Positions 39,122 through 45,234 of a DNA stretch of 64,000 bases are shown here, in pieces. The DNA comes from Anaerohalosphaera lusitana (GTDB lineage: Bacteria; Planctomycetota; Phycisphaerae; Sedimentisphaerales; Anaerohalosphaeraceae). Both the position numbers and the translations under genes were made by a program. Position 1 is the stretch's first letter; each line of letters starts with the position of its first letter. The notes under the pieces were generated by a model. The model was not told where the DNA came from. It did not search any database and saw only the letters and a list, made by a program, of their open reading frames with translations. The DNA lies in NCBI RefSeq assembly GCF_002007645.1, contig NZ_CP019791.1, positions 62,001 to 126,000 on the forward strand. The letters are read 5' to 3'.

Positions 39122-39376
39122 TCAACTCTTTTTACGGCTCAGAAAATTGTACAGCCATGCAAAGATGGCCCCTCCGATCAGAGCGTCAAAGAATCCCCAG
39201 ACCATAGCGATAACGCTGCCCAACGCGGTGAGATTGTAGCCGAGGTAAAATCTCCCGAGGAAGAACTTGTCATCGCTGGGCCCTTCTATCGCGATCATGT
39301 ACCATGTCATCAACAACACTCCCAAACCCCAGATCAGCCCGCATGCCAATGCGAATGCTTTAACATTAAGCTTCAT
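39122..39376 (-). CDS. holin-like small membrane protein
   Basis: 84 residues from the ATG at 39376 (MKLNVKAFALACG), eight bases after a GGAGG. A GTG three codons upstream lies inside that ribosome site. Two membrane segments (ACGLIWGLGVLLMTWYMIA and ALGSVIAMVWGFFDALIGGAIFAWLYNFL) flank a polar loop. The pattern matches small chromosomal proteins often labelled bacteriophage holin, which occur widely without a phage. It lies on the same strand as the terminase island and directly downstream of it, but whether it belongs to the island is unclear. Confidence 0.65.
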   Translation of the reverse strand: MKLNVKAFALACGLIWGLGVLLMTWYMIAIEGPSDDKFFLGRFYLGYNLTALGSVIAMVWGFFDALIGGAIFAWLYNFLSRKKS

Positions 39377-39664
39377 TAGAATCACCTCCCTTCATGCTAT
39401 GCGCACAAACACAGGCCCTGCTCAATCATATCGAGCAAGACCTGTTCGCCTTGTTAAAAGGCTGTTACTACCGCGCGATGTAGTAAATACATCGCAAATC
39501 CCCACACATATTTATTACTGATTTTATGACAATTGTTTGCGATCAGGCACTGATTTTTTCGGATTTCTGCCCGGACTCCAGAACCCTACTTTACAATCAG
39601 TGAAGGCCCGAATCGCAATGTTCAAAAATGTCATACCTCCTTGGACCGAGGCTACACGAAAGAC
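39377..39664. other. gene-free stretch after the large terminase gene
   Basis: No gene is seen. GCGATGTA and TACATCGC form a perfect 8-base hairpin with a 5-base loop at 39475-39495, without a T-run. A shorter TGCTC/GAGCA repeat lies at about 39419-39436. No direct repeat matching the right edge of the island was found by eye. Confidence 0.4.
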
Positions 39665-41200
39665 CTAATACTTCCTAACCATTGCCCCGCTATTGTGTTT
39701 AAGGCCCACATAAAAGTAACGCAATGCATCGATGTGATGATCATAAACACCATCCTTGTCCGGCAGCTCAGCACCTCTGCGTCGCACATCATCCGGATAA
39801 TGATAGCACTGCATCGCCTCGATAAGACGCACACATCGGGGATCGATGACCAGCGAACTCTTGCCGTCGCCTCTCCGCAGGGCCCGGCGGATAAGCTCTA
39901 CCCCTTCCAGAATACCGCTGCGTCTGTATTTCGTGAGTATCCCGTAGGCACGCAGCTCACGAACAGGACTAGTCCCGGTCACATCGTTTCGACCGGCACC
40001 GGCCGGATCACAGAACGTCGCGGCAACCTGCTCCTCACGGCAGGGCGTTCGCTGCTTGAGCTGCTCTGCATGGCTGGCGATCGTAGCACGCGAACGCTGG
40101 TACTCGTCGATCACACGTACATTGCCCTCTGCATCCGTCTGCAGCCACAGACAAACGAAGGGGTTCACAAAGCCGAAATCCAGCGTACGATACAGCGGCA
40201 GATCAGGATCATACGCAACCGGCTTGACGTGTACGGCGGGCTCGAAATCCGCAAACACCACGTTCTCTATGGACGGCCGACGACAGAGCATCTCAGATTC
40301 AAAGCCTGCCTTGCTCGACCGTTTCATCTGCGTAATACAGTCATCGATTTTCAGATAGCCGTCGGCATGCCTTGCCTTGCCCCCGCAATATCCCCACAGC
40401 GGACACGTGCTGCAGCTCCGCGAAACACAACGCTCGATAACTTCCCACATACACCACTTGATGGTCGGCACCGCCATTTCTTTAGCCGAACTCACAACCT
40501 CACCCATCAGTCCATAGGGCCGGTGCATCGTGCTGATCACTTCCATCGCCGCCTTGATGCCCTTGGTACTTTGCGTTATGAATTTGGCCGCCTCGAAAAC
40601 GTCACGGTCGAAAAGCTCAACCTCATCACATCGCAACTTATGGACATGCGATCCCCGCACACTTTTAGCGGACTGCGTGAGCACCTGCACTTTCGAACCG
40701 TTGATGAACTGACACCGTTCCTTGAGTATGCGTCCGTCGACAAACTGCTCGAACCCGCGACCCAGAAAACCAACAAGATAGTCGTACATCCTGCTGGCCT
40801 GCTCACCCGATCCGCCAAGTATCCGAACATCACAGCCGGGCTTGAACAGACAGTCGAGCAGCGTCGCGATCGCAGCAATGTGCGTCTTACCGCCCGCCCG
40901 GTTCGCCCAGACCACCGCGTCGCCGTTGGCCCCGGCATTGTCATCAGACGCCATGTTCGCATCATCCGCCGAAATCAGCATAGCGTCCGCGTTTGTTTTG
41001 CCCGTCGATTTGTCTGCAGACCAGCAATGCCACAGGTAATCCATCGGTGTATCATGATCGCCGCAAACCCGGACGTCCGGAACATCCACACCCAGGAAAA
41101 CCTTGATATAGTTCTTTATATCCGAACGGCCGGCAGGTCGGATCATCCGCAGGTCTTCATAGATTCTATTTGCGCGCCCAACCTCTACATCTCGCCCCAT
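39665..41200 (-). CDS. phage-type terminase large subunit (packaging ATPase-nuclease)
   Basis: 511 residues. The ATPase domain has Walker A ANRAGGKT (99-106) and Walker B LRCDEVELFD (D192, E193), with SGEQASRMYD and VISTMHRP typical of TerL. The RNase H-like nuclease has the three acidic sites at RTLDFGF (D341), FCDPAG (D398) and DHHIDALRYF (D487/D491). Between them lie four cysteines (C258, C263, C266, C272) within 15 residues, which could bind a metal or an Fe-S cluster and are not a usual terminase feature. GGAGGAG precedes the ATG. A 536-residue frame on the other strand is a shadow. No portal or capsid gene adjoins it. Confidence 0.88.
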   Translation of the reverse strand: MGRDVEVGRANRIYEDLRMIRPAGRSDIKNYIKVFLGVDVPDVRVCGDHDTPMDYLWHCWSADKSTGKTNADAMLISADDANMASDDNAGANGDAVVWANRAGGKTHIAAIATLLDCLFKPGCDVRILGGSGEQASRMYDYLVGFLGRGFEQFVDGRILKERCQFINGSKVQVLTQSAKSVRGSHVHKLRCDEVELFDRDVFEAAKFITQSTKGIKAAMEVISTMHRPYGLMGEVVSSAKEMAVPTIKWCMWEVIERCVSRSCSTCPLWGYCGGKARHADGYLKIDDCITQMKRSSKAGFESEMLCRRPSIENVVFADFEPAVHVKPVAYDPDLPLYRTLDFGFVNPFVCLWLQTDAEGNVRVIDEYQRSRATIASHAEQLKQRTPCREEQVAATFCDPAGAGRNDVTGTSPVRELRAYGILTKYRRSGILEGVELIRRALRRGDGKSSLVIDPRCVRLIEAMQCYHYPDDVRRRGAELPDKDGVYDHHIDALRYFYVGLKHNSGAMVRKY

Positions 41201-41317
41201 AAAACTCCTCCTCTATCTGAAATGCTTTTAAGAAATGGTCCTACCGACTGAGCCGTGTCAATGGCTCCGTACTGCACAAGAAAAAGACCGCGTCAAATGT
41301 TGCAATTGGCCCCGCCT

Positions 41318-41746
41318 TCATTCATCCAGTTGCTGTATGCGCTGCACGTGTCTGCCGGCCTCGAACTCTGTCTCCAGCCACAGCTCGACGATCTCCAGCA
41401 CCTCCTCTATCGCCAGCATCCGCTGACCCAGCGAGAGAACATTCGCATCGTTGTGCTCCCTGCTCAGCCTTGCGCTGCGAAGATCCCATGCGATCGCACA
41501 ACGAATACCTTTCACACGATTAGCGGTCATAGCTTCACCGTTACCGCTGCCGCCCAGTACGATGCCCCGTTCGAACTTACCCGCCGCCACCGCCTTGGCA
41601 ACCGGCCGAATAAACTTCGGGTAGTCCACCGATTCCTCGCTGTAAGTGCCGAAATCCTTGACTATATGACCCTTCTCTTCAAGTAACTTCTTTATCCTCT
41701 CTTTGTATCTGTAACCGGCATGATCTGATCCGATCGCGATGTTCAT
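41318..41746 (-). CDS. rpiB: ribose-5-phosphate isomerase B
   Basis: Interconverts ribose 5-phosphate and ribulose 5-phosphate in the pentose phosphate pathway. 142 residues. The phosphate-binding start IAIGSDHAGY and the loop GGSGNGEAMTANRVKGIRCA are diagnostic. In the loop a Glu (E71) takes the place of the catalytic Cys of Escherichia coli RpiB, as in the mycobacterial type. ARLSREHNDANVLSLG completes the active site. It has its own strong promoter and lies between the two terminase genes, an odd place for a housekeeping enzyme. Confidence 0.93.
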   Translation of the reverse strand: MNIAIGSDHAGYRYKERIKKLLEEKGHIVKDFGTYSEESVDYPKFIRPVAKAVAAGKFERGIVLGGSGNGEAMTANRVKGIRCAIAWDLRSARLSREHNDANVLSLGQRMLAIEEVLEIVELWLETEFEAGRHVQRIQQLDE

Positions 41747-41800
41747 GGCGTCATCCTGTTGAATAGCAACTTCGTTTTCAAGACTTATTAAAAGTCCGCA

Positions 41801-41828
41801 ATTATACGCCCGAGCCCGAATCGCTCAA
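41801..41828 (-). promoter_or_regulatory. vegetative promoter of rpiB
   Basis: On the minus strand TTGAGC, 16 bases, TATAAT, with a perfect -10 box and four of six -35 bases matching. Transcription should begin near 41794, about 48 bases before the rpiB ATG. This marks rpiB as an independent transcription unit within the island. Confidence 0.65.
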
Positions 41829-41986
41829 GCCATCTTTATCATTTTAATGCAATTATTAATATTTTTGCCCAGGCCCACTCTCTACGCAACCGTAAAAATC
41901 ATCAAATTATCCGAAACAGGTGACCGCCGACAAATATCTCACAGCCGCAGAAATTTCTCGCTCGAAATCACATCATTAACGCTCGC

Positions 41987-42418
41987 TCAGCTATCCTTTT
42001 TCGCTTTACCACCTCCCGCCATCACTTCCAGCAATCTGCTGGCCATTTGCGTCGTCAACCCCTCTGCCAGTCGGACATCATCCGCATCCTCGACAGGTTT
42101 ATCCTCGGGCATCGGCAGCGAAATTATATCCAGACACGCCTTTCTCGCTGTCTCCTCCTTCTCCGAATCCGTAAGCTGCACAAGCTTCATCGCCGCCATC
42201 TGCGCATACCGACTGATCACCATCTCGCTCTGCAGCTTCGCCGACCGCATCCGACATCGCAGTTCGCCCATGAACGTTTCTTCATCCATCCACCGCCGGA
42301 ATACCTTGCGACTCAGCTTATGCTTTCTAAGTATTTCCATCTCATCCACACCGGTGAACAGATCCTCTATCACGCGAAGTTGTTTTGGCGTCAAACCGCT
42401 GGATTTCTTTTTAGCCAT
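41987..42418 (-). CDS. small HTH protein, probable terminase small subunit
   Basis: 143 residues. The N-terminus (LTPKQLRVIEDLFTGVDEME, then LRKHKLSRKVFRRWM) is a helix-turn-helix of the kind found in small terminases that recognise packaging sites. The rest is helical, with an acidic loop (PMPEDKPVEDADD). The start overlaps the ParB-like gene by eight bases, showing coupling. In classical phages this subunit is encoded next to the large one. Here rpiB separates them. Confidence 0.65.
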   Translation of the reverse strand: MAKKKSSGLTPKQLRVIEDLFTGVDEMEILRKHKLSRKVFRRWMDEETFMGELRCRMRSAKLQSEMVISRYAQMAAMKLVQLTDSEKEETARKACLDIISLPMPEDKPVEDADDVRLAEGLTTQMASRLLEVMAGGGKAKKDS

Positions 42419-43037
42419 TCTGCTCTCCCGCCTCCTCGTATGCCCGACATATTTTCACCAGCGCTGCTGCCCGCTTCTGGGCCTTAGTACCCGCCTCTGG
42501 ACACGCCTTCGCGATCGAATCACGAACAGCCTCTTGCTGTTCCTCTCTCAGATAGAATACCTCGGGCACCAGCATCTCAGGCTTTGCCGGCTTAGCTTCA
42601 ATACAGCTCTCACGCAGATCCTTGAGCGTCTGAATACTCGCCTGCGTTTCGTTGGTGATCTTCGCAAGATCATCGCTTGAATACTTTTTCGCCAACTGCT
42701 CGATCAGTTCACGCTTCTTCTGCAGATCATCCTGCCCGCCTAGCCGATTCAGCGTCGCCAGCAGAACCATCGTCTCATCATCATCCACATCCCAGACGAC
42801 ACAATCCGCATGCGTACGGTCAAGCTCCATCAGAGCCTTACGCCTGTGATGGCCGTTAATGACCTGATAGTCTCCCGCCCGCGATGGGTGCTTCCGGACG
42901 ACGATCGGTTCGTAATTACCCGTCCTATCGATGTTTCGAACAAGCTTTTCAAAAGTTGACTTGTTCATCCTGTTCGGATTGGCTTCATGCTCGACAAGCC
43001 TGCTCAAAGGCAGACGACAGATCTTATTCTGTGCCAT
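42411..43037 (-). CDS. ParB/Spo0J-type N-terminal domain protein
   Basis: 208 residues. LPLSRLVEHEANPNRM, IVVRKH and the VINGHHRRKAL box (near 60) are the ParB N-terminal nuclease/CTPase-type fold, with the GxHRRxA motif as GHHRRKA. A helical middle (LIEQLAKKYSSDDLAKITNE) could be the HTH, and the tail is helical and charged. The protein is shorter than chromosomal ParB (about 290) and has no ParA partner, so segregation is unlikely. RBS AGGAGG. It overlaps both neighbours, GNAT upstream by 14 bases and the small terminase-like gene downstream. Confidence 0.8.
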   Translation of the reverse strand: MAQNKICRLPLSRLVEHEANPNRMNKSTFEKLVRNIDRTGNYEPIVVRKHPSRAGDYQVINGHHRRKALMELDRTHADCVVWDVDDDETMVLLATLNRLGGQDDLQKKRELIEQLAKKYSSDDLAKITNETQASIQTLKDLRESCIEAKPAKPEMLVPEVFYLREEQQEAVRDSIAKACPEAGTKAQKRAAALVKICRAYEEAGEQNG

Positions 43038-43848
43038 ACTTTCCTCCTGTTAGATCAGCGTTTCGACTTTGTTTATCGCCACGTTTCCAGCCGGGATCGA
43101 ACCAGTAATAATATACCGGCCGTTCCCCCAGCTTGCTTATGATGTAGGCGGTTCGTTCAACACCGTCCGGCATGTTCTTGCGCCGACCGTACGCCTGAAG
43201 GAATCGCCGAAATTCGTATTCGACGATCGACCGCAAATCCGGCTCGAGCGTTCCCAGCTTCGCATGCACCGCCGCCGGATCGACGAACTCTTCCTCTTCG
43301 ATACCCGCCGCACTCAGCAGCTCGATCAGTCTCGCCGCCCGCACCGGCACGGCTCCGCGTATCGAACTCATGCCGGCCCGCTCCAAAAACGGGTTGACCT
43401 TGCCCATCACCGCCTGTGCCTCCACGAAAGGAACGTTCATCTTCGGCATGGTTTCGCGAACCAGCCGAGCCGCAAGACCAAGCCCCCGATACCTTGGCTC
43501 GATCACGACACGGCTGATCAGACGCACTTCCCGATTCAGCATCGCCAGACCGAGACGCCTGTCCCCGAAACCGGCATACCGACCATCCGTCACGACATTT
43601 CGCAGCGCAAGGTTCGGCACCGGCATCGAGTAGACGATCGCACCTACAACACCGCCCTTTTCCATCCCCCACGCCCGCTTGTCACACATCGCGAAGATAG
43701 CCGCATAAGGCCCAAGAGACGTATCGCGGTAGTGAAACCGTGCCAGCCTCTGATACTCTGCCCGACCCGCTCGCTGTATGATCAGGTTGTCCGCAACGCT
43801 GCACGTTTTGCGCTTTGCATCCATTCGCCTATCGATCCGCCCGGCCAT
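43024..43848 (-). CDS. GNAT-type acetyltransferase in the packaging-like island
   Basis: 274 residues from the ATG at 43848 (MAGRIDRRM), with GGAGG six bases before it. A longer frame upstream has no support. The acetyl-CoA loop is ISRVVIEPRYRGLGLAARLV, with R-x-x-G-x-G/A. HYRDTSLGPYA at the N-terminal side and VGAIVYSMPVPNLALRN fit the acetyltransferase half of a known archaeal and phage family in which it is fused to an ABC ATPase (as I recall, COG2401). Here the two are separate genes overlapping by 20 bases. The substrate is unknown, possibly a DNA base or protein. Confidence 0.8.
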   Translation of the reverse strand: MAGRIDRRMDAKRKTCSVADNLIIQRAGRAEYQRLARFHYRDTSLGPYAAIFAMCDKRAWGMEKGGVVGAIVYSMPVPNLALRNVVTDGRYAGFGDRRLGLAMLNREVRLISRVVIEPRYRGLGLAARLVRETMPKMNVPFVEAQAVMGKVNPFLERAGMSSIRGAVPVRAARLIELLSAAGIEEEEFVDPAAVHAKLGTLEPDLRSIVEYEFRRFLQAYGRRKNMPDGVERTAYIISKLGERPVYYYWFDPGWKRGDKQSRNADLTGGKYGTE

Positions 43849-44497
43849 CACCTGCCTCCCTCTCGCGCCTGATGACCTCCGTTCGCCCGCCCAGCTCGAT
43901 CTTGACGATAACATCCGGCCGAAGATCCGCCAGAAAATCGTCACGCGCGCCGGCCAGCACAAATATCTTCTTGCTTCGTCTCGCAAATCGCGCGATGTTG
44001 TGAGCTATCACAGCCGCCCCGATGCGATCGAGGTTAGAACAGAACTCATCCGCGAATATCACTTGCGAATCACCCGCAATCGCACAAGCCAGTCTGTAAC
44101 GATACTTTTGCCCCTCACTCAGATTCGCCGGCTTGTTCAGCACCGTAAATACATCGCTCAGACCCGCCTTGCTCAGTGTCAGCAATTTACCCAGCGTGGT
44201 CTCTCCCGCAATGCAGTCGACTAGCGTTTGCGTTTCGCTAAGCTCGATATCCTCCAGCCGCACCTTCTGCTCCGTGGTCGCTTCATACAATTCCCGCAGC
44301 AGCGTACTCTTTCCCGATCCGCTCGGCCCCGACAGATAGCATATCTGCCCCGGCTCAATCGCCAGATCCAGCTCATACCTCAGCCCGCGCTCGCGCATCG
44401 TACCGACACTGATACCGAACATCCGCATGACCTTGCAGACCTGCTCACTGATCTGCCCATGCCATGGATACACCTTCGCCGCGTTCAATTCGATCAT
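43829..44497 (-). CDS. soluble ABC-type ATPase in the packaging-like island
   Basis: 222 residues without membrane segments. Walker A GPSGSGKSTLL (about 56-66), the ABC signature LSEGQ, Walker B VIFADEF and an H-loop-like FVLAGARDD are present. The signature is close to transporters, but no permease is encoded nearby. The ATPase instead overlaps the acetyltransferase, so it probably works with that enzyme on nucleic acid or protein. AGGAGGAGAAG precedes the ATG. It is the first gene of a four-gene overlapping set. Confidence 0.83.
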   Translation of the reverse strand: MIELNAAKVYPWHGQISEQVCKVMRMFGISVGTMRERGLRYELDLAIEPGQICYLSGPSGSGKSTLLRELYEATTEQKVRLEDIELSETQTLVDCIAGETTLGKLLTLSKAGLSDVFTVLNKPANLSEGQKYRYRLACAIAGDSQVIFADEFCSNLDRIGAAVIAHNIARFARRSKKIFVLAGARDDFLADLRPDVIVKIELGGRTEVIRREREAGDGRADR

Positions 44498-44625
44498 CTT
44501 CTCCTCCTTTCAAAATCCTCGACCCCCAAAATGACAGAACCTTCATCTCCCCCTTTTACCCTCCCCGGCTCACCTTGCGGCCGAACCAGATATGAACGTA
44601 GATTCGGCTCAACGCACAGTCCGTA

Positions 44626-45054
44626 TCATGCCCCCTGACCAGGCTTGACCAGTCGCTGAATATTCATCAGCGCCTTCCTCACACGATACACACTCGTGCC
44701 GCGCTTTCTCGCAATTTTCCGCTGACTCAGCCCTTCCAGAAAATAGTCCCTTGCCACAAGCAGCTCAAATCCCTCAAGCGAGCTCCTGTTCCTCAAACAG
44801 GTCAGATACTCGCTGTTGATAAGCCTGGCCACCAACCGATTGATCCGCCGTGCTATCGTCGCCTCATTCACTCCCGCAACCCTCGCCATCTTGCTGAAGG
44901 TCTCGCCGTGGTCCAGATACATCTCCATGATCGCCCGGTCCTTTCCGCTCAGAACCTCCGCCCGAGCTCGAAGCATATCGATCCTGCCCGCAAAAACACT
45001 ACCACGCCCGTCAGATGCCTCGATCTTATTCAGATCAACTGTCACTTTACTCAT
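44626..45054 (-). CDS. sigma-region-4-like HTH regulator
   Basis: 142 residues. Two HTH-like segments are visible: GETFSKMARVAGVNEATIARRI and GLSQRKIARKRGTSVYRVRKA (about 47-70 and 107-128), the second similar to sigma region 4. There is no region 2, so it is not a full sigma factor. It is the first gene of the island. A palindrome overlaps its probable -10 box, which suits self-control. RBS GGAGAGA. Confidence 0.7.
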   Translation of the reverse strand: MSKVTVDLNKIEASDGRGSVFAGRIDMLRARAEVLSGKDRAIMEMYLDHGETFSKMARVAGVNEATIARRINRLVARLINSEYLTCLRNRSSLEGFELLVARDYFLEGLSQRKIARKRGTSVYRVRKALMNIQRLVKPGQGA

Positions 45055-45187
45055 CTATTCTCTCCTCACTTAGTTGGAAGACTCCTTCCAGCTATTTGAC
45101 TCAACAGTCTACCTCGATTTTGAACAAAAACCTGTAAAACTCACATACCCCCTTAGAATGCAACCCTCAAAACAACTCACTGCTTAG

Positions 45188-45234
45188 TATGTTAACTATT
45201 TACTTAACATAGCTGATATTTTACTATTTCGCAA
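45188..45234 (-). promoter_or_regulatory. promoter with overlapping palindrome before the HTH gene
   Basis: On the minus strand TTGCGA (45234-45229), 17 bases, TATGTT (45211-45206). The -10 box is the first part of an inverted repeat, TATGTTAA, 8 bases, TTAACATA, spanning 45188-45211. This is the layout expected for a repressor-controlled promoter. The surrounding 45055-45456 is AT-rich and shows no gene. Confidence 0.5.

Follow-up and report, generated by a model that had tools for sequence, protein, structure and literature searches.

Proposed families of gene transfer agents (GTAs) cover alphaproteobacteria and one spirochaete group, and the genes of RcGTA are distributed over five loci, according to the available part of the source (PMC9662315). 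Very few GTAs are known beyond the alphaproteobacteria, as stated in the accessible text of a second source (PMC12946183). The locus considered here belongs to a planctomycete, Anaerohalosphaera lusitana, and lies in a window of 64,000 nucleotides (contig NZ_CP019791.1, positions 62,001 to 126,000) of a 4.25 Mb genome that is assembled as one contig and is referred to below as G000. A sequence-only reading of this window had described a capsid-less terminase island, and had proposed that it encodes either a domesticated packaging or DNA-transfer module or a defence or DNA-modification system that reuses a terminase. The leftward gene order reported in that reading was confirmed: a helix-turn-helix (HTH) gene, an ABC ATPase, a GNAT acyltransferase, a ParB-like protein, a small terminase (TerS)-like protein, rpiB, a large terminase (TerL) and a holin-like gene, every one of them on the minus strand (Table 1). 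Our results indicate that this operon is probably the packaging cluster of a vertically inherited, multi-locus, phage-derived, GTA-like particle system of the Planctomycetota.

Conservation of the module was surveyed in 294 genomes of the phylum (22 of the window's class), in 120 class genomes at least 90% complete, in 18 loci of the class for which stretches of up to 20 kb were retrieved, and in a scan of species genomes that gave 409 candidate stretches and 329 confirmed relatives, the best 80 of which were analysed. TerL is present in 45 of the 294 phylum genomes and in 19 of the 22 class genomes, G000 included. GNAT occurs in 18 of the 22, being missing from the same three that are without TerL and from G220. 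The arrangement HTH-ABC-GNAT-(ParB-TerS)-TerL on one strand was recovered in 13 of the 18 class loci, with the HTH family upstream of ABC in 13 of 18. Four family-mates carry TerL without ABC or GNAT in the fetched stretch, their GNAT being located about 30 kb off on the same contig in three cases and on another contig in the fourth, and G220, without ABC and GNAT, represents the fifth non-conforming locus. Among the best 80 relatives' loci, many of which are truncated by contig ends, we found GNAT in 31, ParB in 34, TerS in 31, ABC in 26, HTH in 23 and rpiB in 16; when at least 9.5 kb of upstream sequence was available (n = 39), GNAT was found in 23 and none of the five partners was within reach in 10. 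Where TerL is accompanied by at least two partners, 32 of 33 further loci are colinear on one strand, the exception (L124) having TerS after TerL. Opposite-strand matches were obtained for ParB in L141 and for TerS in L150, and host genes are frequently interspersed between the module genes. Because the order recurs in dozens of genomes, a chance arrangement is excluded. The record titles of the relatives from the species-genome scan are planctomycete except for one 'uncultured bacterium', and the order is conserved in planctomycete genomes. The closest homologues, taken as the best 80 of 329, are planctomycete loci that structural genes seldom adjoin rather than the complete prophages that a simple decayed prophage would imply, and the phage and prophage versions, with portal and capsid attached, are more distant.

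The description of the island as capsid-less holds only locally. Neither a portal nor a capsid gene was found next to the window operon; both genes lie outside the window at 269-273 kb of the genome, in a head cluster (Table 1) about 160 kb from the packaging module at 101.7-107.1 kb. Clustering of neighbouring genes identified portal-like and capsid-like families near the module in a few loci, and these families match the Pfam profiles SPP1_portal (PF05133, 9e-17) and SU10_MCP (PF17236, 5e-88), the latter of which we take to have the HK97 fold. A capsid-less island is therefore rejected, as an SPP1-type portal and an SU10-type major capsid protein (MCP) are encoded elsewhere on the chromosome. 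Within the head cluster of G000 the scaffold matches phrog_194 (1e-4), the connector-position protein has 219 aa, the majority of genes are without a family match, and the GC content (0.515 vs 0.518 locally) is that of the surroundings. The two clusters are placed side by side in G300, as TerL-portal-scaffold-MCP-connector, and about 980 kb apart in G127. The profiles PF04860 (4 of 22 class genomes, 3 over the cut-off and G000 weakly) and PF05065 (4 of 22), together with phrog_145, found structural genes in other places, mostly prophage-like, and missed the SPP1-type portal and the SU10-type capsid. A prophage of G000 (L088, G000:C1:1228001-1248000) was rejected as the partner of the window's TerL because it brings along a terminase (phrog_38), a portal (phrog_21) and a head/protease protein (phrog_4523) of its own; it also carries a tape measure and a ParB-methyltransferase gene.

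Capsid and portal were each detected in 61 of the 120 class genomes, 60 of which are common to both, and in all 60 the two were matched on one contig, usually no more than a few kb apart. Each is mostly present as one full-length copy, with fragments or weak extra matches in some genomes. Cell-type TerL was defined as a match of at least 325 bits after G297, G340, G364, G381 and G385 had been dropped (phrog_145 lies beside TerL in four of these and on another contig in G381), which leaves 64 genomes; 18 genomes with weak TerL matches alone were counted as TerL-negative. With these definitions TerL and capsid occur together in 60 genomes, TerL only in 4 (G317, G359, G371 and G387), capsid only in 1 (G301) and neither in 55, while GNAT is found in 60 of the 64 genomes with cell-type TerL. 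The sequence-only reading had regarded ABC, GNAT and ParB as the most likely functional core. This proposal is not supported, because ParB and TerS are missing in some lineages while TerL, portal and capsid travel together. In a pool of 112 loci, a good number of them short, the TerS family was found in 47.

A GTA is expected to descend from a tailed phage, to be inherited with its host, to have genes at several host loci and to be kept by selection. Descent from a tailed phage is seen in TerL, in the portal and in a capsid of presumed HK97-fold type, and the module is derived from phages. The 44 chromosomal rows fall into a single clade of the TerL tree (SH-aLRT 98), which also takes in the IMG/VR contig L172 and is sister to 15 phage and prophage rows, including L259 of G297 (SH-aLRT 87 for the join). 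Viral-contig terminases gave a 24-36% match to the window's TerL (80 among the matches listed). Inheritance with the host is apparent from the TerL tree, which mostly follows host family with f2 apart (f3, f4, f5 and f6 each hold together), from the co-occurrence given above, and from distance correlations between TerL and MCP (r = 0.89, 15 genomes), TerL and portal (r = 0.94, 14 genomes) and TerL and host rank, the measure of host relatedness used (r = 0.77), with a permutation p of 0.0002 for each. Distribution over several loci is seen in G000 and G127, the genes of G300 lying side by side. Regarding selection, dN/dS calculated on profile-trimmed domains ranges from 0.05 to 0.34 for all genes with computable dS in four genome pairs, a fifth pair (G344/G388) being saturated in dS and yielding no ratio, and broken copies are present in some genomes. 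In the hub-less pairs G209/G261 and G329/G334 the values are 0.09 for TerL and 0.07 for MCP. By this measure head and motor are under purifying selection, including in lineages without a recognised tail hub. Vertical descent, purifying selection and co-inheritance with the capsid/portal cluster uphold the proposal of a domesticated packaging or DNA-transfer module. L172 is filed as a viral contig, as is L295, another IMG/VR contig, which has a planctomycete-like portal-to-hub cluster with host-like genes alongside.

The details of the window operon itself were confirmed as well. TerL possesses the Walker motifs A (RAGGKT) and B (CDE) together with the nuclease aspartates D341, D398 and D491, and no variation at these aspartates or at K105, T106, D192 and E193 was seen in an alignment of 13 sequences that contains the window's; gene identities and intact TerL motifs are as the sequence-only reading had claimed. 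A genome-wide search of G000 gave this TerL as the single match. The ABC ATPase has a P-loop (GPSGSGKS), a signature (LSEGQ) and a Walker B motif (FADE). The overlaps, previously given as 8-20 bases, amount to exactly 20 (ABC/GNAT), 14 (GNAT/ParB) and 8 (ParB/TerS) bases, and a purine-rich stretch precedes the start of each of the seven genes, HTH to TerL. The operon is flanked by host-type genes (a rhodanese by Pfam, the rest by eye), and its GC content (0.548 vs 0.528) and third-position GC (0.638 vs 0.649, s.d. 0.059, n = 41) are host-like.

Several observations weigh against a GTA-like system. Particles, packaged host DNA, release and transfer would all have to follow from a system known here from its genes alone. 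The association of TerL with capsid (Fisher 4.6e-28) was evaluated by a statistic that ignores relatedness, and the head cluster is low in third-position GC (0.555 vs 0.649, s.d. 0.059). No shared promoter motif was found in the regions upstream of HTH, portal and TerL in 14 genomes: the best 20-mers were mostly no better than those of four shuffles each, and an 18/20 match upstream in G057 is an A-rich stretch, with none recurring between genomes. TerL is interrupted in G185, G380 and G354, and ABC in G157 and apparently also in G380; G095 and G220 each have a portal split into two pieces that lie far apart, the capsid of G220 is fragmented too, and G185 has a capsid fragment only. Some of these broken copies may be assembly errors. 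In the TerL tree G057, of family f2 in the window's order, is basal in the clade (SH-aLRT 83 for the rest). The capsid tree is less clean by host than the TerL tree, with two viral rows inside: the capsids of the phage-like contigs L293 and L294, 63-66% identical to chromosomal ones, nest in the chromosomal capsid clade with weak support, and this nesting suggests that capsids may have been exchanged between phages and the chromosomal system.

Tail genes complete the case against. No tape-measure or tail-tube gene was recognised in the head cluster of G000, and 11 of 17 capsid-bearing order- or family-mates are without a strong match to c12, the candidate hub. The structure model of c12 (pLDDT 68.5, query TM about 0.3) is baseplate-hub-like, with Foldseek matches to the HFTV1 tail, contractile injection systems, the Mu baseplate and VgrG (best E about 1e-11). 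Matches to c12 occur in 36 of the 120 class genomes; they reach at least 175 bits in 26 of the 61 capsid-bearing genomes, G000 included, 24 of them on the capsid's contig, and at least 860 bits in 6 of the 17 capsid-bearing mates in the window's order. The hub family gave no match in G142, G209, G261, G349, G354, G057, G127, G329 and G334, and the matches in G157 and G339 are weak and off the capsid's contig. The fetched hub-less loci of the window's order retain portal, scaffold (or a replacement gene), capsid and connector, in most cases accompanied by c5, c6 or both. In the hub-less lineages the tail has either been lost or been replaced by an unrecognised one.

The apparent tail losses bear directly on the best-surviving rival, an unlikely one in our estimation, in which the genes encode a defective-prophage killer or PBSX-like particle that packs host DNA and is released, and that kills or is a shell only, with no delivery. 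Head, motor and a baseplate-hub-like gene are all present, delivery is not among the observations, and apparent tail loss fits a particle that does not need to inject. A head without a tail, however, cannot kill by its tail, and a shared benefit would account no less well for vertical retention across the class at low dN/dS. Somewhat less probable again is a tail-less head-plus-motor system for DNA storage, export or disposal, in which tails are relics in some lineages. The dN/dS values of the hub-less pairs and the several loci in which portal, scaffold, MCP and connector are left with one or both of the small membrane or lipoprotein-like genes are as such a system would predict, but the hub is kept in G000 and 25 other genomes and tails of other families could escape the hub profiles. 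No tail-less head-plus-motor form of a domesticated phage was found in the literature searched, as far as its accessible parts go. We find functionless decay of scattered remnants of an old prophage very improbable: broken copies (G185, G220, G095, G380, G354 and G157) and tail losses would be expected of it, whereas the range of dN/dS, the catalytic motifs intact in most rows and the joint retention of clusters separated by as much as about 1 Mb would not. A simple decayed prophage was rejected because dN/dS is low, motifs are intact and clusters are co-retained.

The GNAT bears on the defence question. Its structure model (pLDDT 84.9) is nearest in fold to GNATs that include phage Mu Mom, which has the top Z in VIA (12.2, 8bv8) with others tied at 12.0. 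Mom is absent among the 50 Foldseek rows listed for the model, and in sequence the hhalign probability is 0.1. All 33 rows compared, among which the window's appears twice, share the pair H40-Y41, and Mu Mom, whose histidine is catalytic, has a corresponding pair; the GNAT also has a cofactor motif (RGLGLA). DNA marking by the GNAT is possible. In PADLOC the ABC ATPase matches mad3 (3e-16) and mad8 (1e-5), ParB matches MTase_II models and the HTH protein weakly matches CARF3 (7e-4), while GNAT, TerS and TerL are without any match and in no case do separate module genes hit separate components of the same system. A defence or DNA-modification system reusing the terminase, with ABC-GNAT-ParB as its active core, finds some favour in these single matches, in the resemblance to Mom and in fused ABC-GNAT genes without this terminase in other families of the class, but is the least credible reading of all, given co-inheritance of the module with capsid and portal and the lack of any multi-component PADLOC match.

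If the operon does serve a GTA-like particle, its action can be sketched. The HTH gene is the probable regulator of the operon. A gene of a single HTH family, divergent where mapped, lies upstream in 11 of the 18 class loci, and the one upstream member tested combines HTH_3 and Peptidase_S24, as in CI/LexA-like repressors; no S24 repressor gene was found beside the G000 operon. Expression might be induced by damage, a CI/LexA-like S24 repressor and the HTH/antiterminator-like protein together switching it on. ParB and TerS would then load TerL onto host DNA, and TerL would cut this DNA and pump it via the portal into the capsid. A role alongside packaging is proposed for ABC and GNAT, in which the DNA or one of the packaging proteins may be acylated. 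TerS of the window has no Pfam domain that we could find, its N-terminus being HTH-like by eye only; a GTA small terminase is described as being without a detectable DNA-binding domain in the available part of PMC11841831, which also puts the headful of known GTAs at 4-14 kb.

A related system is apparently present in a second planctomycete class, judging from gene families. SU10_MCP was found in 44 of the 294 phylum genomes (43 over the cut-off) and in 0 of 14 named controls; among its carriers are 18 genomes of the window's class and, from a different class, 15 of family f28. Of the 294 genomes, 36 have both TerL and capsid, 9 have TerL only, 8 capsid only and 241 neither. Fusion of ABC to GNAT is seen in the f28 lineage as well as in some further ones, and in 10 f28 loci the fused gene stands beside TerL, mostly between two small conserved genes. 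The capsids of f28, f79 and f81 form one clade (99/93); their portal is named by position, with a profile match in f81 only (phrog_104, 6e-7). The f28 TerL clade is separate from that of the window and therefore implies two origins or a terminase swap. A more far-reaching version of the GTA-like reading, with at least two old lineages, Mom-like marking of the packed DNA by ABC-GNAT and tail-less head-plus-motor particles in some members, is speculative and would hold at best as an outside chance. In L253-L258 (f96, f105 and f106) fused ABC-GNAT frames of about 480-520 aa were observed with no such terminase within the 12-19 kb fetched, which is a stand-alone use of the ABC-GNAT pair.

Table 1 Genes of the window operon (positions in the window) and of the distant head cluster (positions in the G000 genome)
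Feature	Position	Strand	Matches and remarks
HTH gene, first in operon	44626-45054	-	sigma-70 region 4, Pfam 1.8e-7; Phage_antitermQ 6e-5, below cut-off
ABC ATPase, stand-alone	43829-44497	-	phrog_293 6e-29; phrog_11143 1e-22
GNAT acyltransferase	43024-43848, ATG at 43848	-	phrog_886 2e-14
ParB-like protein	42411-43037	-	ParB_N 4.5e-8; phrog_723 3e-20; overlaps both neighbours
Small terminase (TerS)-like protein	41987-42418	-	phrog_2538 4e-4
rpiB, host metabolic gene within operon	41318-41746	-	profile match 1e-56
Large terminase (TerL)	39665-41200	-	Terminase_6C 1.8e-5; phrog_2 2e-18
Small membrane protein	39122-39385	-	NF037947 'holin', 90 bits vs cut-off 70
Head cluster, in order	260.0-272.6 kb	-	portal, scaffold, capsid, connector-position protein, c13, c9, c15
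Head cluster, continued	260.0-272.6 kb	-	108-aa protein, 729-aa protein, c33, c19, c12, c5

Pfam acetyltransferase matches of the GNAT are all below the cut-off. The 'holin' gene does score over its profile's cut-off, in agreement with the sequence-only reading; its link to the module is doubtful, since among the related loci scanned it was found again only in L106, and it probably lies outside the module. The gene rpiB is probably not a functional part of the operon. It was also observed inside or adjoining the operon in G127, G329, G334 and 16 of the 80 further loci. In the head clusters c5 (a lipobox, then a membrane segment) and c6 (a single membrane segment plus a coiled coil) follow the connector in 13 loci each (L087, L158, L169, L264 and L273-L292 being the loci with c5/c6); they resemble spanin and holin by eye, and the Rz-like match of c5 in G000 is very weak (E 0.5).

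Literature searches returned no report of a terminase together with an acetyltransferase, an ABC ATPase and ParB, no orphan or domesticated terminase and no GTA with an SU10 capsid; no planctomycete GTA was found in the accessible parts of the literature searched, nor any such title among the matches listed. If the GTA-like reading is true, it adds a further GTA origin, with a different capsid and motor, in much of one planctomycete class and a relative in a second. It also offers a test of whether GTA upkeep needs a gene-transfer benefit, for which the lineages without a recognised tail would be particularly sharp. More generally, a terminase locus that lacks the common portal and capsid profiles need not be capsid-less, and a viral contig collection can hold host clusters of this kind filed as viruses.

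The closest described systems are the alphaproteobacterial GTAs (RcGTA/CcGTA, Rhodogtaviriformidae; BaGTA, Bartogtaviriformidae), which likewise comprise phage-derived chromosomal head and packaging genes, vertically inherited and multi-locus. The planctomycete system, by contrast, belongs to another phylum, has an SU10-type capsid and an SPP1-type portal, includes ABC, GNAT and ParB in its operon, and is without a detected hub in some lineages; the comparison is one of descriptions, in which the planctomycete side is represented by genes only. The Brachyspira GTA (VSH-1/BhGTA) and the Faecalibacterium FpGTA are also GTAs beyond the alphaproteobacteria, and, in a comparison of descriptions, the text available on them (PMC9662315 among it) mentions no ABC-GNAT-ParB module. 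The window's GNAT, through phrog_886, and the ABC fusion in f28 resemble the 'ABC-type ATPase fused to acyltransferase' of MK0520, presumably COG2401, for which no literature was found under the COG number; in the window the two are separate genes. Pseudomonas phage nickie, Rhizobium phages RHph_N1_10 and RHph_X66 (TerL 23% identical to the window's) and Klebsiella phage ST13-OXA48phi12.3 carry ParB, a second ParB-like gene, ABC, GNAT, a further gene annotated as DNA-binding or hypothetical, and TerL. ParB thus precedes ABC in these phages whereas it follows GNAT in the window, and, unlike in the window, portal and capsid directly follow TerL. The planctomycete prophages of G297 (ABC-GNAT-ParB-TerS-TerL-portal) and G340 (ParB-ABC/GNAT fused-TerL-portal-capsid), both of the same class as the window, and related IMG/VR contigs belong to the sister TerL clade. 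The phrog_145 portal occurs in 6 of the 120 class genomes and adjoins TerL at five loci in four of them. G297 shares the gene order of the window and differs, as does G340, in having this portal adjoin the terminase, with the capsid adjoining as well in G340.

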